From Nitrospinaceae bacterium (GTDB lineage Bacteria; Nitrospinota; Nitrospinia; Nitrospinales; VA-1), in the NCBI GenBank assembly GCA_029261475.1, contig JAJDBG010000093.1:1-40508 (forward strand): a stretch of 40,508 bases of DNA. The letters run 5' to 3'. Positions 10,283-40,210 of the stretch are shown here, piece after piece (within the stretch, counting starts at the first letter, position 1; every line of letters begins with the position of its first letter). The notes below the pieces were generated by a model. It was not told the origin of the DNA and ran no database searches. It was given only the letters and a program-made list of their open reading frames with translations. A program made the position numbers and the translations under genes.

Positions 10283-11971
10283 ATGCTGGTATTTGATCCT
10301 ATTATGCAGGGCCTTTCCCTATTGGCCGAACGGGAACTCCATAAGGCAGAACAGGTATTTCTGCGTGTTATCAATGACCCCTATGCTCAAAAAAGCGAAT
10401 TAAATCAGGTTAGAAAGTATTTAACCGACATTCGCGACTGTCAGGCAGGTCGAAAGTCCCTGGACTTCTCAGTTTATGAAGGTTTGGCAAAGAAAAGTGT
10501 TTTTTCTTTGGAGGAGGCACTTCATTTTCTGGCCGGAGTTTATTTTTCACCCGCCAAATCGTTTGAGGAATTTGATGCTTACCTGGATGATAATATTTTT
10601 CAGGGGATCAACCGACTGAAGAGGGTGAAAATTTGCGAATTGATGGGCCGAGACAAACTCTTTGAAAGTATAGATACTGACGGAAGTGATTTTGTTCAAA
10701 GGGAAATTAAAAAAAGGGGTTTAGAGGAAGAGTTCGACGTTTATAGGTGGAAGACGGTAAGCCGAAAATTTATTGAGCGTATCAATCCCGTATTGCTGGA
10801 GTGTCATCTTGATTTGCTGGAATACATTCTTGAGAATAATGATATTTCTGTTTTGGATGACCCCAAGCTAACAGTTTTAACCTCCAAGTACCGGTGGATC
10901 ATTGAATCGACCCTCAAAAAAAGATGGTATTTGCTGAGAAGTTATTTTTTTAAAGCACGGTCAGATGTCGAAAAACAATTCAATAAGAAGGACGGAAACC
11001 GGAAATACTGGGATGATGTCAAATACAAGAAAATAAGGATTTTTGAGGCCTGTGGTTTTTCTGAAAAGAATATTCAGAAATTTCTTTTCATTGATAAGCT
11101 GAATTACAAAACCTTGGAGAAAATATATCTATTTGCACAGGATTTGGGGCTTGATTTGAATCCAAGGGATGTGAGCCTGGCCTTACGCGGTGAAGAAAAG
11201 GCGAAGGATCACATAAAAGAACGCGCTGGTTTTTTGATGGGCGAGCGTGGCAGGTTCCAGAAAAGTTTAATGGAAATGGGGTTTTCGGAAAAAGGTTCCT
11301 ACAAGATCGCCAATCAAGCTAAAGGGGCGCATAGCCGACAGATCACCGAGGCTTATCACTTGGCTTTAAAAGTTGCGAGCGACGAGATTTTTTGGTACCG
11401 AATTCCCAGTGGGATGGCTGAACTGTCGAAAAACCTGGAGCTGCAGTGTCAAAAACATTTGAGCACGGTTCGAATCCATCTTTTTGAGCGAGGACGTTTG
11501 AATAAAATTTTATTGAAAATGGGGAAGCCCATTATTCAGAAATTTCTTGTTGAAAAGTACGGGGCCGAAGTCATGTCTTTGCAATGTTATTTCCGACTGG
11601 AAACGGTCCATCAATATTACAAGTTGAAGTTCTTTCATTACCATAGAGATCAAATTCCCAGCGTCTCCGAATTGATAAAAATCAGTCGAAAAGAATTCAA
11701 ACCGATTCTTCTTCAAGGTTATCAGGAGTTTATCAAGAAACGAAATTTGAAGATCGATAAATCTATTTTTTCTCAATTAGAGAAAACTGATTCAATCACG
11801 CAATGGGAAGACCCCTGCACAACAGTAGAAGAAAAAATATTACTTAGATGTTGGTTCCTGATGGATCATGGGGTGAGCATCACTCAATCCCGTGTGGACA
11901 ATGGAATATTCGCACCGGGCTTCGATTTGTGGTCTTTTCTTAAACGACAGGAGACGGAATGCAATCCTTAG
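10283..11971 (+). CDS. Large hypothetical protein
   Basis: 562 aa continuous ORF; no family recognised by eye. Confidence 0.75.
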   Translation: MLVFDPIMQGLSLLAERELHKAEQVFLRVINDPYAQKSELNQVRKYLTDIRDCQAGRKSLDFSVYEGLAKKSVFSLEEALHFLAGVYFSPAKSFEEFDAYLDDNIFQGINRLKRVKICELMGRDKLFESIDTDGSDFVQREIKKRGLEEEFDVYRWKTVSRKFIERINPVLLECHLDLLEYILENNDISVLDDPKLTVLTSKYRWIIESTLKKRWYLLRSYFFKARSDVEKQFNKKDGNRKYWDDVKYKKIRIFEACGFSEKNIQKFLFIDKLNYKTLEKIYLFAQDLGLDLNPRDVSLALRGEEKAKDHIKERAGFLMGERGRFQKSLMEMGFSEKGSYKIANQAKGAHSRQITEAYHLALKVASDEIFWYRIPSGMAELSKNLELQCQKHLSTVRIHLFERGRLNKILLKMGKPIIQKFLVEKYGAEVMSLQCYFRLETVHQYYKLKFFHYHRDQIPSVSELIKISRKEFKPILLQGYQEFIKKRNLKIDKSIFSQLEKTDSITQWEDPCTTVEEKILLRCWFLMDHGVSITQSRVDNGIFAPGFDLWSFLKRQETECNP

Positions 11972-12119
11972 CTCATGCTTTACTCTGAGCGTTATTTTTT
12001 ACTTTATTCCTTTTTTTAAACGTTAAATTGATAAAGCGCGTGATCTTTAACTCTCACCTAGAATCAAAGTTTTCAAACCAGACCCGCTTGCTACTTCGTT
12101 AAGAAATATGTTGCCCCCC

Positions 12120-12148
12120 TTGACTCCTGAAAATATCCTCATTATATT
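12120..12148 (+). promoter_or_regulatory. Putative sigma70-like promoter for the hybrid histidine kinase
   Basis: TTGACT - 17 bp - TATATT, followed by the palindrome CTAGATCTAG (12150-12159). Confidence 0.4.
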
Positions 12149-12382
12149 TCTAGATCTAGTATTCCAGTAAAGAAACTAATAAATCGGTTGCATCTTACAA
12201 AACCCGGTCATTGAATTATGTTCATAGACAAGTTTTAGACTTCTTCTATTGAGTAAAAAGTGAGAGACTTGTAGTTGCGTACAGGTAATTTTGCGATGAA
12301 TTGAAAGTTTCCTTTTCTATAAAATGGCTTTAATTACATTTATTGGGAACAGGATTTATGAGCTTTGACGGTAGTTTATCCT

Positions 12383-14473
12383 ATGAGATCTAAAATTTTA
12401 ATCGTGAATGAAAATTCAGAAGAAGCCGATCTTCTGCGGATCATTCTCGAAGATGAAAACCATATTCTTGATATTGCCGCCAGTGGGGAATGTGCGCTTG
12501 ATATTGCTGGCAAATCTATGCCCGATTTGATTCTTTTGGGTAGCACTTTTCCCGATATGGATGGAATCGAAGTTCAGCGAAGGTTGAAGAAAGAGGCGAG
12601 CACACAAGGCATCCCTGTGATCTTACTGGCGGGAAAAAACGAAATGGAGAATATCGTAAAGAGTTTTCCTGCGGTGGGTGTTGATTGCCTCACAAAACCA
12701 TTCCTCGGCGAAGAAGTTTTAGCAAGAACTCGTAGCCATCTTCACTTTAAGTCACTGGTAAATCAATATGCGGAAGAGTCCGAGGCTTTAAAGAAAAGAA
12801 ACGCAGAATTAGAAAAAGAGATTGCTGATAAAAACCGTGCCGTGACCGTTGCTGAAATTCAAAATCGGGCTTTAGAGGCATTTGCCCAAGATAATAGTTT
12901 GTCTGACATAATAGACATTTTAACAAAGGGTCTGGAAAGTCAGTTTGATGGATGCATGTGTTCGGTGCTTGTATTTAATCCAGAAAGTCAAAGCTTACAC
13001 CATTGCTCAGCCCCCAGCTTGCCAGCCAAGTTCAGTCAGGCGATTGAAGGCATGCAGATCGGGCCTTCGGTGGGTTCCTGTGGGACAGCCGCGTACACGA
13101 AGAAACTGGTGGTCGTAGAAGATATCGAAACGGATCCTTTGTGGAAAAGAGCTCAAAAATTTGCTCTATCGCATAATTTGAGGGCATGCTGGTCTCTACC
13201 AATTTTGGCGGCCGATGATCGAGTGTTAGGAACCTTTGCTGTTTATTACAGCTCACCTCGACGGCCCAGCAAAGAAGAACTTGATTTGATCGGGTCTTTT
13301 GCTTATGTGGCAGGGGTGACCATCGAAAGCAAGGAATTGGAAAAATCCAGCAGGGCAAAATCAGATTTTTTAGCTAGAATGAGTCATGAACTCCGTACAC
13401 CCATGAATTCAATATTGGGTTTTACACAATTACTGGAAATGGATGTTCAAAACCCTTTGACCTCCTATCAAAAGGATAATTTGAGGACAATTTCTTCGGC
13501 GGGGCAACATCTACTCGAGCTAATCAACGAAGTGCTGGATCTTTCCAAGATTGAGACAGGGCATCTTGAGTTATCCATCGAAGTCATCAATTTAAATGAA
13601 CTTGTCGATAATGTGGTGTCTTTTTCAAAGCCATTGGCTGAAAATAAAGGGGTGACTCTTAAACTCCAGAATTCACAATCTCAAGAATATTTCGCTGAAA
13701 CCGATTCCTTGCGTCTAAAAGAAGTTTTATTGAACCTTCTTTCTAATGCGATCAAATACAATAAACTCAATGGTTCGGTAACTGTTTCCTTTGAGGAACA
13801 GGCGGAGGGCAAAATTCGGATAGGTGTTCGAGATACAGGACACGGCATTTCTGCAGAAAATAAACTTAAGGTATTCAAGCCCTTTGAACGATTCGATGTT
13901 GATTCTGATTTCATTGAAGGTACGGGCATAGGATTGAGTATCTCTAAACGACTTGTTGAAATGATGAACGGGTCAATTAATTTTGAAAGTGAGCTTAGAG
14001 AAGGAAGCTTTTTTTATATTGATTTGCCAATTTCAGATAAAACTCCCACTCTCCCTCATATTAAGGAAAAACTCAACATGCCAAATGTTTCTACTGAAAA
14101 GCGTGGCAATTGTAAAATTGTTTATATTGAAGATATTCTGGAAAATATTGAATTAGTGAGGCAGATTTTAAGTCATAGGAAAGACATTGAATTATTTTAT
14201 GCCACTAACGCTTTGGATGGAATTGAATTGGCCCGTGCGGAAATGCCTGATTTGATATTGATGGATATTCACTTGCCGGAAATAGATGGGCTGACAGCTT
14301 TCAAAAGATTACAAGCCATAGATGAAATGCGTAGTATCCCCGTTGTCGCTTTGACCTCAGATGCGATGGATACAAATGCAAAAAAGGCCCTGGAAATGGG
14401 GTTTCACTCCTACATCACCAAGCCCATTGATATCCCCAAATTTATGTCTTTAATCAAAAGTATTCTATATTGA
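12383..14473 (+). CDS. Hybrid sensor histidine kinase (REC-GAF-HisKA-HATPase-REC)
   Basis: N-terminal REC (ILIVNENSEEADLL), GAF (SCGTAAYTKKLVVVEDIETDPLW), H-box FLARMSHELRTPMNSILGF, N-box LLNLLSNAIKYN, G-boxes DTGHGIS/GTGIGLSI, C-terminal REC (LILMDIHLPEIDG). Start at MRSKIL preferred over TTG 12365. Confidence 0.92.
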   Translation: MRSKILIVNENSEEADLLRIILEDENHILDIAASGECALDIAGKSMPDLILLGSTFPDMDGIEVQRRLKKEASTQGIPVILLAGKNEMENIVKSFPAVGVDCLTKPFLGEEVLARTRSHLHFKSLVNQYAEESEALKKRNAELEKEIADKNRAVTVAEIQNRALEAFAQDNSLSDIIDILTKGLESQFDGCMCSVLVFNPESQSLHHCSAPSLPAKFSQAIEGMQIGPSVGSCGTAAYTKKLVVVEDIETDPLWKRAQKFALSHNLRACWSLPILAADDRVLGTFAVYYSSPRRPSKEELDLIGSFAYVAGVTIESKELEKSSRAKSDFLARMSHELRTPMNSILGFTQLLEMDVQNPLTSYQKDNLRTISSAGQHLLELINEVLDLSKIETGHLELSIEVINLNELVDNVVSFSKPLAENKGVTLKLQNSQSQEYFAETDSLRLKEVLLNLLSNAIKYNKLNGSVTVSFEEQAEGKIRIGVRDTGHGISAENKLKVFKPFERFDVDSDFIEGTGIGLSISKRLVEMMNGSINFESELREGSFFYIDLPISDKTPTLPHIKEKLNMPNVSTEKRGNCKIVYIEDILENIELVRQILSHRKDIELFYATNALDGIELARAEMPDLILMDIHLPEIDGLTAFKRLQAIDEMRSIPVVALTSDAMDTNAKKALEMGFHSYITKPIDIPKFMSLIKSILY

Positions 14474-14489
14474 ATTCTCTGAATTCAAT
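14469..14489. terminator. Perfect hairpin overlapping the histidine kinase stop codon
   Basis: ATTGAATTC-TCT-GAATTCAAT, 9-bp stem; no clear T tract, so terminator activity is uncertain. Confidence 0.35.
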
Positions 14490-14564
14490 TCGATAGTGCA
14501 TCAGGTGAGGGGTTGAAATCTTCCAAAGGCAGTTCTTTTGGGTTAAAGAAATAAGCCCTAAACC

Positions 14565-15557
14565 TTATATTGTAGGGATGGCCATCCGGTATCGTTCTAC
14601 GGCTGATGTGACGATTGAATCAACAAGAATTTCAAAGTTTTTTTCAACAGATAAAGATTGATTCTGCATGCTTTGAATGCGCAGACTCCGGCTTTTTGAT
14701 GGGTTCAATCCAGGGATGCCATTGACCTCTATTACTTTTTGAATTCCATTTTTATCTTCGCGAATATCAATTCGCACATGATCTTTGCAATGCAATGCCA
14801 ATGCGGCTTTGCGTGCCAGTTCAATAACGGCTTCTGCTTGTTGTTCTGGAATTTGCAGACGTATTGCATTGGCATTTTTCAGGTCTTCTCGTATGACGGG
14901 GTAGCGTTGGTACTGACTAGTATCTATGTGATTGATTACGGGATAAAAACGGCGGGACTTGCCATTGCCCAAAACAGAGACAGTCCATTCTTTCCCCGGT
15001 AGATATTCTTCTGCCAAGGCAGATTGACCAAATCGGTCATGAATCCATTTCGCACGAATATTTAACTCATCGTTGTCGTGGACAATGCTGTCTTCGGAAA
15101 TGCCCGCACTCTCAGATTCAAATTGTGGTTTTATGAGGAGTGGAAATTCTTTTAGACTCAAAGATTCTCCAGATTTTATGACCCATTGTTTTGGTGTCGG
15201 AATTCCCTCTGCATTCAAAATCCTATGAGTTTCGGCCTTATCAATCATGGCTTTCATGTCGGATGCCGAGGCTCCCACAAAAGGGATTTCCCTTTCTGTC
15301 AAGATGTCTGCGACCCAGGGAACATTTTTACCTAAGCCAACCTGAAGCTTGCTTTGATTGAAGTGATACAAAGCACTCCAGATCATATCAAAAGACCGTT
15401 CTTCCAAGGCGGAAATAAATTCTTCCAGGCGAGTGATGTAGAGAGCTTCCGATTCCCACCCAGATACTTCGAGTGCTTTTTCTACCAGCCTTGTGGTTGC
15501 CCAATCGCCCCACCCTTGAGTGGGACCCGCAGGCCCAGTGATCAAAAGTATTTTCAT
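14565..15557 (-). CDS. ATP-grasp ligase (D-alanine-D-alanine ligase-like)
   Basis: 330 aa; PFVGASASDMKAMIDKAETHRIL, PLLIKPQFESESAGI, EEYLPGKEWTVSVLG, DIREDKNGIQKVIEVNGIPGLNPS. Confidence 0.85.
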   Translation of the reverse strand: MKILLITGPAGPTQGWGDWATTRLVEKALEVSGWESEALYITRLEEFISALEERSFDMIWSALYHFNQSKLQVGLGKNVPWVADILTEREIPFVGASASDMKAMIDKAETHRILNAEGIPTPKQWVIKSGESLSLKEFPLLIKPQFESESAGISEDSIVHDNDELNIRAKWIHDRFGQSALAEEYLPGKEWTVSVLGNGKSRRFYPVINHIDTSQYQRYPVIREDLKNANAIRLQIPEQQAEAVIELARKAALALHCKDHVRIDIREDKNGIQKVIEVNGIPGLNPSKSRSLRIQSMQNQSLSVEKNFEILVDSIVTSAVERYRMAIPTI

Positions 15558-15585
15558 TTTCTAACCCGGGGTTCATTGTTTGGAG

Positions 15586-16332
15586 TCAGTTTTTAATCAT
15601 TCGTAGTAACTTCCGTTTGCCCAGCCCGTCGATTTGAGGTGGCGATGTGCCCAACTCGTTTTCCCAAAAATCCTTGTCTTGAAACACATCTAGTACCAGA
15701 GGCAGGTGGCCGTCTTGCGTATAAAGCAACCCGCCTTTTTCAAGCAAGGGGTATAGATATTTGAGGCAGGTGCGTGTCGATTGCGCTAAATCGACATCCA
15801 GATAAATTGCAGAAATTGGTTGTTTGAAACTTGGAAGCGTATCTTCCAGCCAACCGGGGACGAGGTAGCAGGAATCTCTATGACCAAATTGCTCGAGTGT
15901 GCTTTGCACTTCTTCAAGTGTGCCCCTGTATTCTCCTTGAGTGAATGAAACGGGCTTTTTATAGATATTAAAGGTATGGGGTTCAGAATGAGCAGGGATT
16001 CCTTCGAAGGAATCAAACATGTAAAGCGGACGTCCCAGCATTTTCGCTGCCAAGCTGAACTTGGAAGAACTTCCTCCTTTGTAGCATCCCGCCTCAACGA
16101 GGCATCCCTGAGTTGTATCTGCTACCTCAAATGTTCCGTTGATGAATTGCAGTATTTCGTCCTGTGTGTGTGGGCAGTCAATATGCCAACTGATAGCGTA
16201 GATCTTGCGTATGATGCCCCGTCGCTCCGTACGGGATAGCGGTAGCGCAGGGTTGTGATAAAACTGCGCTACCGCATTCCAGTCTGTCCACCTCAGGAGA
16301 TCAGCTATTCTTTTTTTCAAGCCAGGCCGCAT
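15586..16332 (-). CDS. TylF/MycF-like (macrocin O-methyltransferase family) SAM methyltransferase
   Basis: LVEAGCYKGGSSSKFSLAAKMLGRPLYMFDSFEGIP, YRGTLEEVQSTLEQFG, ISAIYLDVDLAQSTRTCLKYLYPLLEKGG. Confidence 0.8.
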   Translation of the reverse strand: MRPGLKKRIADLLRWTDWNAVAQFYHNPALPLSRTERRGIIRKIYAISWHIDCPHTQDEILQFINGTFEVADTTQGCLVEAGCYKGGSSSKFSLAAKMLGRPLYMFDSFEGIPAHSEPHTFNIYKKPVSFTQGEYRGTLEEVQSTLEQFGHRDSCYLVPGWLEDTLPSFKQPISAIYLDVDLAQSTRTCLKYLYPLLEKGGLLYTQDGHLPLVLDVFQDKDFWENELGTSPPQIDGLGKRKLLRMIKN

Positions 16333-16357
16333 TGCAACCCTCCTTTATCTGAATAGA

Positions 16358-17521
16358 TTAAACACTTGCCTTTGCTGTGCCTTCCACAATGGGGCGCTGG
16401 TTGGGGTCGACTCGGGTGATGCCTTCAAATTGATCCTTGAAACGCTTGTAGCGGTAAACCTTTTCTTCTTCTGAAATTTGATCTGCCATGTCTGCGGCCT
16501 TGGTATCCGGTCGCCCCGAAAACATATGACAGGCCACCGTGTCGAAACTTAAATCTTTGCAGTACTGGATGGTTTCTTCCAGTTCTTCCCGTGTTTCAGA
16601 AGGGAAGCCAACGATGACTGCCGAGGATAAAGTTACGTCAGGAGATGCCTCGCGAATTTCTTTGAACTGTTTCTTAAATACGTCCATGTCGCATAGTCGT
16701 CCCATTAATTTAAGGATTCTTGGTGAGGACGATTGAATAGGGGAATGCAAGGACTCGATTTTGTTTCTTCTTGCGAGTTCCTTGAGTTGCTCAAAACATT
16801 TTGGAATGTACCAGGGTGAAATATCTTCAAGGACCAACTGGAAATCGGCATCGACTTTCAAAATTTCATCAAAGAGAGTCCCAATATTTGCTCCAAAATC
16901 CAGTCCATAAGAGCCAGCAGACTCACCAAGGATATAGATCTTTTTGTGGCCTTCGCGGATGCCTCTGTGAAAATCTGCCATCACCTGCTCCATCGGCTTG
17001 CTCACGCTGTCTCCAGCTTTCCATATTGAACAAAAGGTGCATCGGTGTGAACATCCATCCTGAATCTGTATGAAAAACCGTTCCGTATTCATCATATGGT
17101 TTGTTTCAGGGATTTCCTCATAGCGAACAGTTGGTTCGATAAATTCGTTAAATTGCTCGTAATTGTCCATGTTGAAAGTTGGCCCTCCAAACTCTTTTTC
17201 CATACGTTCTGGATTCATATTGGTCAGGCAACCTCCCATGATGACACGAGCTGATGGCTTCTTTTTTTGATTGATCACTTCCAGAGCATTAAAATCTCCA
17301 TCCTCTATAGCCGTTGTAAAACCGCAAGTGGTCAAGACGATGATGTCTGCTGTTGGGTCTACGTTCAGGTTTTGTAAGGGGAATGCGTATTTATCGGTGG
17401 GGTCGAGATCGTGATCGTCACTGATTACTTCGTAACCATTTGCTTCAAAAAAATGTCTCAAGCGTTGAACCTTTAATCCTTCGCGATGACAACTCTTCTC
17501 AACAATTTGAACTTTTTTCAT
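16358..17521 (-). CDS. Radical SAM protein, MiaB/RimO methylthiotransferase-like, apparently without TRAM domain
   Basis: UPF0004-like N-terminus with three Cys (EKSCHREG, LTTCGFT, MGGCLTN), radical SAM CSHRCTFC, protein ends shortly after the radical SAM region. ATG at 17521 preferred over GTG 17563. Confidence 0.85.
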   Translation of the reverse strand: MKKVQIVEKSCHREGLKVQRLRHFFEANGYEVISDDHDLDPTDKYAFPLQNLNVDPTADIIVLTTCGFTTAIEDGDFNALEVINQKKKPSARVIMGGCLTNMNPERMEKEFGGPTFNMDNYEQFNEFIEPTVRYEEIPETNHMMNTERFFIQIQDGCSHRCTFCSIWKAGDSVSKPMEQVMADFHRGIREGHKKIYILGESAGSYGLDFGANIGTLFDEILKVDADFQLVLEDISPWYIPKCFEQLKELARRNKIESLHSPIQSSSPRILKLMGRLCDMDVFKKQFKEIREASPDVTLSSAVIVGFPSETREELEETIQYCKDLSFDTVACHMFSGRPDTKAADMADQISEEEKVYRYKRFKDQFEGITRVDPNQRPIVEGTAKASV

Positions 17522-17589
17522 GATATTAGGACTCCATTTTTGTATGTAAGCTTGAGAAAACACACCTTCACACTCTAATTTACTATTAC

Positions 17590-17618
17590 TGTATAGCAGT
17601 GTATGATAGTAAGGTCAA
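17590..17618 (-). promoter_or_regulatory. Putative sigma70-like promoter of the radical SAM/TylF/ATP-grasp operon
   Basis: Minus strand TTGACC - 17 bp - TATACA; overlapped by nested inverted repeat TACTAT-t-ACTG-tatag-CAGT-gtatg-ATAGTA (17581-17611). Confidence 0.55.
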
Positions 17619-17837
17619 CCAAATTATATCCGATTTGCAATTTAAATTTATTGGAACTGGTGATTTGTTTGAATTAGCGATGTTTAAACAGCTAGGGAGG
17701 CAAAATACTGGTAAAATCTGTGTTTGTTAAATCATATTCATATATTGTATTTTCTTTTCAAGCTTGAGTTTTTCTTTGAAAATTTGTTCGAGCATGTGTG
17801 GAGCTGATTTTGTAATTTCTAAATCAGATGAGGTGTG

Positions 17838-18206
17838 ATGAATTTAAAAATCATTGATTTTTTGATCAGTTTTGGAGCGGGAGCATTGATTGCTTTTGGA
17901 ACGAGCCAAATTCTTCCCGATAGCTGGTCTCCTCTGGTTCTTATGGTTGCAGGAGGGATTACGGGGATGTTTTTGAGTCTTCCTTTAATGATCATCCTGG
18001 TGCCACCCTTTGGAGCCTTTGAAGTTATGATTGCCTTGCATTTGATTGCGATGCCCGCAGGGATGATAGGGGCTATGTTGATAGGAGTGGCTCCAGATTA
18101 TTGTGTCGCGGTTTCGGGTGCTAGCTGGGGAGTCGTTGTGTGGGGGATTATTGTCTATTTCAATCGACGCTATGGTGTGGGGCGTGTTGAGCAGGTGATC
18201 GAATGA
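17838..18206 (+). CDS. Small integral membrane protein, hypothetical
   Basis: About four hydrophobic segments; overlaps the downstream methyltransferase start (ATGA). Confidence 0.7.
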   Translation: MNLKIIDFLISFGAGALIAFGTSQILPDSWSPLVLMVAGGITGMFLSLPLMIILVPPFGAFEVMIALHLIAMPAGMIGAMLIGVAPDYCVAVSGASWGVVVWGIIVYFNRRYGVGRVEQVIE

Positions 18207-26230: not shown

Positions 26231-27436
26231 TTAATTAGAAAGGGAGATGGCTTCGAATTTCTTGTGTAGGGGATTTCCCAGATAATCTTCTACGTAGTTT
26301 TTGATGTAACCTTTTTCGTACAGCTTTCGGTTGGACATGCCAGAATTGACTTTATGTAGCACCTTGAACCGTATGCGTGGAAAGCGTTCCTGAAAGTCTT
26401 CAAACAGATTCCCCGAAATATCCTTCTCCTGGTTTCCCGAACCCTCCATAATCACCTTAGGCAGATATACGACTCGTTCGTTGGTCAATCGTTTTGCCAC
26501 GTCATCAAAGGTCAACAGAGTTGTGCAATCTGAATCGCCGCCAAGAGTCGCGTTGGGAACATAAAGGTATCGCGCCCGGTTGGGACGGAACAGTTTAAGA
26601 ATCCGATAAACATTGCCTGCCATTACCACGGTATCTTTTTTTTCAAGTTCGCAAGCATCCAGCGTTTTAATGATTTTCTTCCGATTCAAAAATGCAGTGA
26701 TGGACGATTCGGTGTGAATCATTGTGATGTTGGGATAGTTGGCATCGTAAATTCTTCTTGCCTCATTTGGAAGATGATCTTTTCCTATGCGAGTGATGCG
26801 CGTTGTTTCATCGTCCAGTGTTTTTAGAGGCGTCAAACATCCCATCCATAAAAGGCATTTGGAATTAACTTTTGAAATGATTCGAGCGTCTTCGGACATG
26901 GTATTGGGTCCGAAAGAATAAAAGTTTGCAGAGCTAACGGCAGGACCATCCAAAACTTTCAACACATGCTCTGCAGTGGGTCCGTTGGGCATCAACTGTT
27001 TTCGATATTTACCGAGTGTGATAACAGATAGCTCAAAGTTGATGCGACCGGGGTATTTTTCAGAGAGACGGTTGATTTGGTCTGGGTCGACATAGCCCAC
27101 GGTGAACATGATGATATTCTTATCAGTGGTCTCCAGAAATTCCTCTATCCAGGTCATTGTTCGAGGGTGCAAGAACAAGTCGGTCCATTCCATATATTCG
27201 TTGCCGCCGATAACCCAGGATTCTGAAGGTTTTGTGGGAAGACTTTGAATGTTTTTCAGGATGAAACGCCAGTTTTCTTCCGTAGTGAGGGGGATGTCGT
27301 AAGTCTTGCGGAAGTAGGAGTGGTCTTTCTCGTAGCAAAAAGTACACTTTACAGGGCATGTTTTGCCCAAGCTAAGAGGAATTTTTCTTTCTCGGATTTC
27401 TTTTAGTAGTATCTGATTTATAAATTCCTGGTCCAA
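26231..27436 (-). CDS. Radical SAM domain protein
   Basis: LSLGKTCPVKCTFCYEK (CxxxCxxC) near the N-terminus; 401 aa. Confidence 0.85.
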   Translation of the reverse strand: MDQEFINQILLKEIRERKIPLSLGKTCPVKCTFCYEKDHSYFRKTYDIPLTTEENWRFILKNIQSLPTKPSESWVIGGNEYMEWTDLFLHPRTMTWIEEFLETTDKNIIMFTVGYVDPDQINRLSEKYPGRINFELSVITLGKYRKQLMPNGPTAEHVLKVLDGPAVSSANFYSFGPNTMSEDARIISKVNSKCLLWMGCLTPLKTLDDETTRITRIGKDHLPNEARRIYDANYPNITMIHTESSITAFLNRKKIIKTLDACELEKKDTVVMAGNVYRILKLFRPNRARYLYVPNATLGGDSDCTTLLTFDDVAKRLTNERVVYLPKVIMEGSGNQEKDISGNLFEDFQERFPRIRFKVLHKVNSGMSNRKLYEKGYIKNYVEDYLGNPLHKKFEAISLSN

Positions 27437-36353: not shown

Positions 36354-37456
36354 AAATTTGGGGGTCAAATCTTGATTTTTTTTAAATTGAAGGTTACTAT
36401 TTGAATCAGGAACACTCGAAACAGATATTCACCCTACTCGCAGAAAACAAATCATGTCCAGACCCCTCAGAATTGATTACCCCGGAGCTTGGCATCACGT
36501 CATGGGCCGAGGCGCAGGAAAAAAAGCGATTTTTAGAAACGACAATCAACGCGAGATTTTCATCAAATTATTGGGCGAAGTCCGTGTGATATTTGACATC
36601 GAAATACACGCCTATTGCTTGATGAACAACCATTACCATCTGCTCATCCGTTCTCCTCAAGCCAGCCTTGCGCGCGCTTTGCGTCACTTGAACGGAGTTT
36701 ACACGCAACGTTTCAATCGAATCGTAGGAACCGACGGGCCACTGTTTCGAGGCAGATACAAATCCATCCTCGTGGACAGTGATAACTACCTGCTCCAAGT
36801 CAGCCGCTACATTCACAGAATTTTGCTCGACTCGAACCTATCCAAAAAAATGCAGAGTCTCCTTTGGTCCAGTTTTCCGGCCTATATCGGGAAAGCTTCG
36901 ACAGGAAACGAATTGGAGACAAAACACATTTTAGGGATGATTGGGAAATCAAATACCAAGGCCCGTTACAAAAAATACGTCGAGGAAGGATTGGATGCCG
37001 AAACCGCCGATTTTTACTCTAAGAGCAGGCAGAGCCCCTTATTGGGGGATGAAGCGTTCATTGAAAAAATATCCGATTTTATAGAGTCCGAAAAATTAAG
37101 CCCTGAAATCGCAGGGGCAAAGCGTCTCAAAAAGCCACCAAGCATCAAACGAATCATCCAGTTTTGCGCCGAGTACTTTGAAGTATCGCCCAAAGACCTG
37201 CGTCACAGCGTGCGTGGAATCCGTAATCAGGAACGCGCCATAGCCATCGGCCTATGCCGCGCCCCCGGCGGACATCGTCTGGAAGACATCGCCAGACAAT
37301 TTGGTGACATAAGCTATTCGGGTGTCTCAGCCGCAATCAGTCGCTTGAACCGGGAATTGGACGAAGACGCGAAGTTGAGAAAAATGATGGAAAAAATGAA
37401 ATCAGAACTTTAGCTTGCGTTAGATTTATATGAAAACAAGATTTGACCCTAAATTT
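36354..37456 (+). mobile_element. Y1/REP-type transposase element bounded by inverted repeats
   Basis: Left AAATTTGGGGGTCAAATCTTG (36354-36374), right CAAGATTTGACCCTAAATTT (37437-37456), inverted with one indel and one substitution; 13-bp identical core. Confidence 0.7.
36454..37413 (+). CDS. REP-associated tyrosine transposase (Y1_Tnp) with DnaA-C-like C-terminal region
   Basis: PLRIDYPGAWHHVMGRG, HAYCLMNNHYHLLI (HxH), TDGPLFRGRYKSILVDSDNYLLQVSRYIHRI; C-terminus resembles the DnaA DNA-binding helices. Confidence 0.9.
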   Translation: MSRPLRIDYPGAWHHVMGRGAGKKAIFRNDNQREIFIKLLGEVRVIFDIEIHAYCLMNNHYHLLIRSPQASLARALRHLNGVYTQRFNRIVGTDGPLFRGRYKSILVDSDNYLLQVSRYIHRILLDSNLSKKMQSLLWSSFPAYIGKASTGNELETKHILGMIGKSNTKARYKKYVEEGLDAETADFYSKSRQSPLLGDEAFIEKISDFIESEKLSPEIAGAKRLKKPPSIKRIIQFCAEYFEVSPKDLRHSVRGIRNQERAIAIGLCRAPGGHRLEDIARQFGDISYSGVSAAISRLNRELDEDAKLRKMMEKMKSEL

Positions 37457-38409: not shown

Positions 38410-38985
38410 CTATGCATTGTTAGATTCAATCATGGCTTTAGCAAAAATTGAATACTCACGGTCTTTTTCAGCTTCAGCTTCTAGGGTTGTTAAAGCGGCA
38501 TTACGTAGTTGCAAGTTTTTTGTTCTGTAACAGGCTTTAATAGCACTTTCTAATTCATTTAATCGTTCTGCTCGCTTTTCTAGCAAATCAGGCCTGTTCA
38601 AACCAATTTCTTGGATTGTAATCTCTCCTCTTTCGCTACCTTTTTTGGGGCGTAATATAGCTCCAAAAGCATAAAGATTATCTTCAGGTGGTTCTTCATA
38701 GGGATTTACAAATGGCGTATCATCGAAATATTTATTACTTTTTTTATTGTTACATTTGTTGCAAGCATACCCAAGGTTATCCCAATTAAATTCAAGGTCT
38801 GTGAATTTATCTTTGGGTTTGATGTGTTCTACATGAGCAAAATCAATATGCGAGATCTTACTTTCACAATACATACATTTATCGTATGAAGATTTCTTCA
38901 AAGCGTTTTTATTATCAGGGTGTTTGTAATTACCGCCTTTAAGGGCGGATTGGTTCGGACAATTTTGGCGATCTAGTTTAATCAT
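38410..38985 (-). CDS. HNH endonuclease (PtuB-like, TIGR02646-type)
   Basis: CMYCESKISHIDFAHVEHIKPKDKFTDLEFNWDNLGYACNKCNNKKSNKY; IGLNRPDLLEKRAERL. Confidence 0.8.
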   Translation of the reverse strand: MIKLDRQNCPNQSALKGGNYKHPDNKNALKKSSYDKCMYCESKISHIDFAHVEHIKPKDKFTDLEFNWDNLGYACNKCNNKKSNKYFDDTPFVNPYEEPPEDNLYAFGAILRPKKGSERGEITIQEIGLNRPDLLEKRAERLNELESAIKACYRTKNLQLRNAALTTLEAEAEKDREYSIFAKAMIESNNA

Positions 38986-40210
38986 TTTTCTCCTCTAAAA
39001 TCTTTGTGATTGCAGACGGTATTAATCTTTCTAGACCTAGATCTTCTAAATCTTTCTTCATTCTCAAAAATTCATCTTCCGTCATTGTTTTTCTGGAATA
39101 GTTACTTACTATTTCTTCCAACTTTCTTTCAGCCCATATTGGCATTGTAAATGATACCCCTAACACTTCGTCTAATACCTCAGTTGCAGTTTTTGCTTTG
39201 TTTTTAAAATCAAGAACCTTACTTACGACTTTCTTATTTTCATTATAAATCAGGGCATAAACTTTAGCGTCTCTGACAGAGCCAACTATTAAAGGACTGT
39301 GAGTGGATACTATAAACCGTATAGAGGGAAATGCTTCCAACAAGTCACCTAAGATTTGCCTTTGCATGGATGGATGAAGGTGGTTTTCTATTTCGTCTAT
39401 AATAACTGTAAAGATTTCCCCTTTCTCTTCTGTGCTGTACATATAAATTTGCCAAGCTATATCAATAAGAGCTGCAATTCCTCCTGAAACCGTCTCAAGA
39501 ATAAATTCATCTTGTCCACCATTACAGATAAATACGACTTCAGCATTTCTAATCTCAAGTTTTTCAAAGCCAAGTGATTGTGGGAGCACTTTTTTCAAAA
39601 CTAAAGGAAAGCCTTCAAAATACTGAAGTTGATTCGCATCGGGAGGCATAACTTTTGACCCATAACCTTGTACTGCCCAGCCTATTAATGCCGATTTCAT
39701 CATAAAAGAACTGGATTGATTACCTTCTCCCATATAGCGCTGTCTATTACTAGTATAAACCTCATCAAAAGCTTGTCTTTTTGGTTTCTTAGCCATGGGA
39801 ATAGTTGTGACCTGTTTATACTTCGGAGCAGAGCGATGCGATGGTACAAAAAAGCAATTTACTCCTTGTTGCCCATTGATTTGCAGATGGTATTCGGCGG
39901 ATGCTGTGTCTTGAGTTTGTATTTTTGCTGTTTGGCCATTGCTGTAAGATAATTGGCCTATTTGAGGTAAATCACTCTTGTCTTTCCCGTTAAAATAGCG
40001 CGTAAAAAACTTAATGATCCCAGACTCTTTTTCCTTTTGTGGTGTTGAAAAAGACGGATTTTGCCAATTGGAGTGTTTAGCTAATATACTTAATATTGAT
40101 GTTTTCCCACTTCCGTTCGCACCAGTAAGAATTGTCAACCTGTTGTCCAGATCAATATCTATGTTTTCAAATTGTTGCCAGTGATCAATTTTAATAATAT
40201 TAAAATGCAT
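38978..40210 (-). CDS. AAA ATPase (AAA_15/AAA_21, PtuA-like)
   Basis: Walker A GANGSGKTS, Walker B FTVIIDEIENHLHP, STHSP; overlaps the HNH gene by 8 bp. Confidence 0.85.
   Translation of the reverse strand: MHFNIIKIDHWQQFENIDIDLDNRLTILTGANGSGKTSILSILAKHSNWQNPSFSTPQKEKESGIIKFFTRYFNGKDKSDLPQIGQLSYSNGQTAKIQTQDTASAEYHLQINGQQGVNCFFVPSHRSAPKYKQVTTIPMAKKPKRQAFDEVYTSNRQRYMGEGNQSSSFMMKSALIGWAVQGYGSKVMPPDANQLQYFEGFPLVLKKVLPQSLGFEKLEIRNAEVVFICNGGQDEFILETVSGGIAALIDIAWQIYMYSTEEKGEIFTVIIDEIENHLHPSMQRQILGDLLEAFPSIRFIVSTHSPLIVGSVRDAKVYALIYNENKKVVSKVLDFKNKAKTATEVLDEVLGVSFTMPIWAERKLEEIVSNYSRKTMTEDEFLRMKKDLEDLGLERLIPSAITKILEEKND

Follow-up and report, generated by a model that had tools for sequence, protein, structure and literature searches.

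The window analysed here, a stretch of 40,508 nucleotides that makes up contig C93 in a draft Nitrospinaceae genome of 2.9 Mb, carries three consecutive open reading frames on its minus strand (14565-17563). In order, they encode a TRAM-less radical SAM protein of the MiaB/RimO, or methylthiotransferase (MTTase), superfamily (16358..17521, 387 aa; PF04055 and PF00919), a TylF-like SAM-dependent O-methyltransferase with an altered metal motif (15586..16332, 248 aa; PF05711, 4e-17), and a non-Ddl ATP-grasp ligase of the D-Ala-D-Ala-ligase superfamily (14565..15557, 330 aa; PF07478, 3e-17). An initial annotation of this DNA had described three minus-strand genes separated by about 25-30 bp; the gaps measure 25 bp (radical SAM/TylF) and 28 bp (TylF/ATP-grasp), and both Pfam and NCBIfam agree with the three family names it assigned. 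The convergent kinase and divergent gene that it placed at the borders are also found, as a two-component kinase with GAF, HisKA and receiver domains (12365-14473, plus strand) and a small membrane protein (17835-18206, plus strand).

The radical SAM reading frame can start at a GTG at 17563, giving 401 aa, or at an ATG at 17521, giving the 387 aa used for residue numbering below. The ATG is more likely to be the start, because the ortholog in a second genome of the genus (G002) begins there and a GGAG lies upstream. In the stretch that separates the trio from the divergent gene (17522..17834) there is no conserved small ORF, and promoter and terminator matches within it were not in excess over shuffled sequence. 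GC content is 45% in the trio and 43% in the window, and the corresponding values for the trio of G002 and its surroundings are 51% and 50%. The trio is therefore close to local GC in both genomes and gives no compositional sign of recent transfer.

Several other features of the window were recorded. A PtuA/PtuB pair of the Septu anti-phage system lies at 38410-40210 on the minus strand (PADLOC, 532 and 217 bits). A stand-alone 401-aa protein (26231-27436, minus strand) has a CPVKCTFC motif and a weak radical SAM match below cut-off; its DNA is kept in G002 (72%) and in another genome of the genus, G001 (84%), so the genus carries it as an established, though uncharacterised, gene. On the plus strand, a 562-aa protein at 10283-11971 has no Pfam match and is conserved in G001, and a protein at 36454-37413 is of the IS200-like (Y1) transposase type by Pfam, with a DnaA C-terminal-like match just under cut-off.

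Sequence features of the three proteins

Known MTTases have three domains, fall into four clades, and use two SAM molecules to make and insert SCH3 (PMC10702137). In the trio protein the radical SAM motif CX3CX2C is kept (C157-X3-C161-X2-C164), with cysteine in 53 of 53 aligned rows, and the auxiliary-cluster residues C11, C66 and C98 are cysteine in 50-51 of the 53 rows, the others being gapped. Both cluster sites are thus in place. The TRAM domain, by comparison, is missing: neither the window protein nor its G002 ortholog has a Pfam match to it, and both end shortly after the core. RimO of the window genome, used as a positive control, gave PF18693 and PF01938; the genome's own MiaB (461 aa) also had no match at the same threshold, though its C-terminal length suffices for a TRAM domain. 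Because all three MTTase domains contribute to substrate binding (PMC10702137), loss of TRAM alone is no proof of a small-molecule substrate.

The best NCBIfam match of the radical SAM protein was TIGR00089, at 209 bits against a cut-off of 251, and the TIGR equivalog models for MTTases gave 155-177 bits against cut-offs of 315-357, so that the protein falls below every NCBIfam MTTase cut-off. Among solved structures it is closest to Thermotoga maritima RimO (4jc0, 5.5e-36). MiaB and RimO of the window genome score above their family cut-offs, and an MtaB-like copy is cut by a contig end; with these copies elsewhere and the trio protein under all cut-offs, its identity as the housekeeping MiaB, RimO or MtaB was rejected. 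In trees its stem branch spans 1.6-3.1 changes per column, and topology tests rejected neither a grouping with RimO (p-AU 0.38) nor one with MiaB (p-AU 0.28). What stands out most in the analysis is this putative MTTase, which has no TRAM domain and is claimed by none of the curated family models.

Another TRAM-less MTTase-like radical SAM protein was seen directly upstream of an NRPS gene (L107:148-5655, on G345:C407). It may be a natural-product MTTase in its own right. An early tree placed it as sister to the trio protein, but at a point where long branches come together, and kinship of the two is not claimed.

The methyltransferase scored 62.7 bits against Pfam TylF (PF05711, gathering score 23), and its closest solved chains are 4cdz, 5i10, NovP and MycF. 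TylF enzymes O-methylate, and those known structurally, NovP and MycF, methylate antibiotic sugars; a triad of aspartates binds a divalent metal. In the window protein this triad (D-x26-DD) is incomplete, as D179 and D207 are present and the middle position is Gln206. The closest protein outside the genus, at 44% identity, is encoded on a Pantoea dispersa plasmid (NZ_CP106661). It forms with the window and G002 proteins a subfamily of three, with the motifs EAGCYKG, YLDVDL and QDGHLPL; all three members carry the glutamine and read QDGH (Q206-D207-G-H), versus DDY in 6 of 7 other TylF proteins.

On the Pantoea dispersa plasmid, the TylF gene lies in a cluster (L060:7671-13914) with genes for a 213-aa hypothetical protein, two PhyH dioxygenases, a B12 radical SAM protein and an extra TyrRS; an MFS transporter gene is nearby. 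From its gene content this looks like an antibiotic-type cluster, with the TyrRS presumably serving self-protection.

The ATP-grasp protein is far from the housekeeping enzyme. Its best Ddl model, PRK01372, gave 89.6 bits against a cut-off of 243, and the window genome has its own Ddl-like gene on contig C39, 24-26% identical to that of the trio; assignment as the housekeeping Ddl was rejected on these grounds. The closest homologs sampled (104 bits, 33-34% identity) are ATP-grasps outside Ddl that carry the motifs RDxxRxDxR and ExNPxPG, and the presumed Mg ligands of the trio protein, E277 and N279, align with their ExN. Enzymes of the ATP-grasp ligase class act via acyl phosphates. A separate operon (L108:1093-4983, on G345:C441) combines KamA, two Ddl-like ATP-grasps and a GNAT-like gene.

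The trio in related genomes and beyond

G002, a single contig of 3,310,067 bp, contains the same three genes in the same order and orientation (L038:6655-9623) at an unrelated chromosomal place. Protein identity between the two trios is 76% for the radical SAM protein, 52-53% for the methyltransferase and 55-56% for the ATP-grasp, and two of the genes overlap by 4 bp in G002. There the trio is bordered by a class I methyltransferase/endonuclease V-like pair on one side and a hypothetical gene on the other, and a distance of about 440 kb separates it from the orthologs of the window's downstream flank (from 17835 on). G001, in turn, has no trio at the collinear site: both flanks align with the window at 75-80% DNA identity, and the 5.9 kb from 11971 to 17835 are replaced by 1.8 kb with an RtcB-like gene. 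The presence of the trio elsewhere in G002 and its absence from the collinear site in G001 thus define a presence/absence unit within one genus. The site itself is a variable spot, where the RtcB-like gene of G001 (L104, on G001:C32; identified by eye, not by profile) replaces kinase and trio between orthologs of window positions 11971 and 17835.

Between the window and G002, pN/pS was 0.18 for the radical SAM gene, 0.44 for the methyltransferase and 0.36 for the ATP-grasp, with synonymous sites saturated; these values indicate purifying selection on all three genes. Wherever it is present, namely in the window genome and G002, the trio is co-conserved in synteny, and none of its members is a housekeeping ortholog, the genome having its own MiaB, RimO, MtaB-like and Ddl-like copies. 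The trio is thus a real, uncharacterised and relocating unit, its co-conservation being based on two genomes. The initial annotation had proposed a self-contained, undescribed pathway, which the comparison supports in part. Its unit is syntenic and free of housekeeping orthologs, and in the literature searched we found no description of a methylthiotransferase combined with an ATP-grasp and a TylF enzyme; the chemistry is, as before, inferred.

Outside these two genomes the search gave much weaker matches. Among the 78 genomes of the phylum, G002 alone besides the window genome contained the radical SAM protein at E below 1e-33. Among 387 genomes spread over the domain, its next best match was 138 bits, compared with 687 for G002; domain-wide values were 69 versus 299 bits for the methyltransferase and 104 versus 383 bits for the ATP-grasp, in samples whose 300-390 genomes per protein cover bacterial families thinly. 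Another two samples, each of about 330 genomes and searched one with the radical SAM protein and the other with a methyltransferase profile, added no new ortholog. A plasmid search with the radical SAM protein returned only RimO- and MiaB-type proteins; in phages the matches were remote and confined to the ATP-grasp and the methyltransferase. Scans of the genome and viral contig collections with trio proteins or alignments yielded no relatives, although the peptide patterns chosen were poor and the result is no evidence of absence. Relatives may well exist elsewhere in bacteria. A reading of the trio as an anti-phage system was rejected, as it had no PADLOC match.

Proposed function and comparison with known systems

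The reading we favor, with confidence that falls just short of even, is that the trio is a mobile biosynthetic or tailoring cassette for a small, sulfur-containing, O-methylated compound derived from an amino acid. More tentatively, the radical SAM protein could represent a new MTTase clade whose substrate is a small molecule or short peptide in place of tRNA or S12; together with the non-Ddl ATP-grasp and the TylF enzyme with its altered metal site, it would yield a methylthiolated metabolite in marine bacteria of this nitrite-oxidiser phylum. The radical SAM enzyme would probably consume two SAM molecules: the first would donate its methyl group to a sulfide bound to the auxiliary [4Fe-4S] cluster, and the second would give rise to a 5'-deoxyadenosyl radical. 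In this way -SCH3 (or S) would be placed on a carbon that is not activated, in a substrate of low molecular weight. The ATP-grasp would convert a carboxylate to its acyl phosphate and couple it with an amine, so that an amide (dipeptide-like) is formed, and the TylF-like enzyme would O-methylate a hydroxyl. The sequences show the three families, the gene unit, the two cluster sites and the lack of TRAM; we infer that the substrate is a small molecule, that it receives SCH3, in which order the steps follow, and that all three enzymes act on one product.

Synteny in G002 with absence from the collinear site in G001, purifying selection, the MiaB, RimO and MtaB-like copies elsewhere in the genome, retention of the six cysteines and absence of TRAM in both species were counted as support for the cassette reading. 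Further contextual support was drawn from the location of the L107 protein beside an NRPS, from the Pantoea dispersa cluster, and from ATP-grasp homologs encoded beside lysine 2,3-aminomutase genes (L061 and L108). AlphaFold models made without an alignment were unusable (mean pLDDT 45 and 35). Counted against the reading were the two-genome basis of the co-conservation, the tree tests, which rejected kinship with neither RimO nor MiaB, and the content of the cassette, which lacks a transporter, a resistance gene and an enzyme to build a scaffold and would therefore have to draw on a primary metabolite. Methylthiolated small molecules such as mt-F430 occur, and the enzyme responsible is not known (PMC10702137). 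A small-molecule MTTase, if that is what the trio encodes, would be new, as S12 is the only MTTase substrate other than tRNA named in the literature read (PMC10702137), and this compact set of three genes, with an MTTase-like protein that has no TRAM, makes a promising target in the search for the first one.

The trio could instead modify a specific protein, with the radical SAM enzyme methylthiolating a residue in the manner of RimO on S12, the ATP-grasp attaching amino acids much like RimK on S6, and the methyltransferase adding another mark. The structural match to T. maritima RimO and the tree test, in which grouping with RimO was not rejected, are consistent with such a role, as is the position of RimO as the one MTTase known to act outside tRNA (PMC10702137). 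However, RimO of the window genome is intact, and the ATP-grasp best matches Ddl-type models, not RimK. Structurally known TylF enzymes, moreover, methylate antibiotic sugars, and the two trio loci have no linked gene in common for a candidate target protein. Together these points make protein modification unlikely. A little less likely again is that the three genes, though transcribed and moved as a set, belong to separate pathways, for example with the TylF protein methylating a surface sugar. The sugar substrates of the known TylF structures and the faster divergence of the methyltransferase and ATP-grasp (52-56% identity) than of the radical SAM protein (76%) would fit this; the same gene order at two unrelated places and the 4 bp overlap in G002 argue for joint function.

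We give marginally lower credence to the possibility that the trio modifies a ribosomal precursor peptide encoded nearby or elsewhere, even though radical SAM, ATP-grasp and methyltransferase enzymes all occur in RiPP pathways. The unit has no peptidase or transporter, and the surroundings of the two trios have no small ORF in common. The initial annotation had noticed no clear precursor, and the comparison extends this to both trios: within the two loci, no ORF of at least 15 aa upstream of the window trio resembles one upstream of the G002 trio, so a RiPP with a linked precursor is unlikely. Least probable by some distance is a divergent fourth MTTase acting on tRNA, which would follow the habit of all known MTTases except RimO of modifying A37 (PMC10702137) but conflicts with the absent TRAM, the MiaB and MtaB-like copies already in the genome, operon partners that are not tRNA enzymes, and the patchy occurrence of the trio within one genus.

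Set against known systems, the proposed small-molecule cassette is built of variants of known families in a combination that we did not find described in the literature searched. Its radical SAM protein shares with the MTTase family (MiaB, RimO, MtaB, e-MtaB) the radical SAM core and the N-terminal three-cysteine domain, with all six cysteines aligned. It differs in lacking TRAM, in scoring below all cut-offs, in the wider spacing of its first two cysteines, in its stem branch, and in sitting in a dedicated operon. The methyltransferase resembles the TylF/MycF/NovP O-methyltransferases in its PF05711 membership and LDxD motif, whereas its subfamily has Gln for the first Asp of DDY. With the Ddl superfamily, the ATP-grasp shares the C-terminal ATP-grasp domain and an EVN-x-x-PG motif; its N-terminus, however, reads GPAGPTQGWGD in place of the MGGLSSE of the genome's own Ddl, and where Ddl has PGMT it has GLNP followed by a KSRSLRI insert. 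The N-terminal motif, the KSRSLRI stretch after GLNP and a further motif, FESESAGI, are private to the window and G002 proteins.

At the level of gene combinations, the KamA operons (L061, L108) likewise pair a radical SAM gene with a Ddl-like ATP-grasp, and their ATP-grasps are 27-29% identical to that of the trio, compared with 24% for the genome's own Ddl; their radical SAM protein is of another family (lysine 2,3-aminomutase), and they have no TylF gene. The uncharacterised Pantoea dispersa cluster has no ATP-grasp, and its radical SAM protein is B12-binding and accompanied by two PhyH proteins and the extra TyrRS, but its methyltransferase gene adjoins a radical SAM gene, as in the trio.
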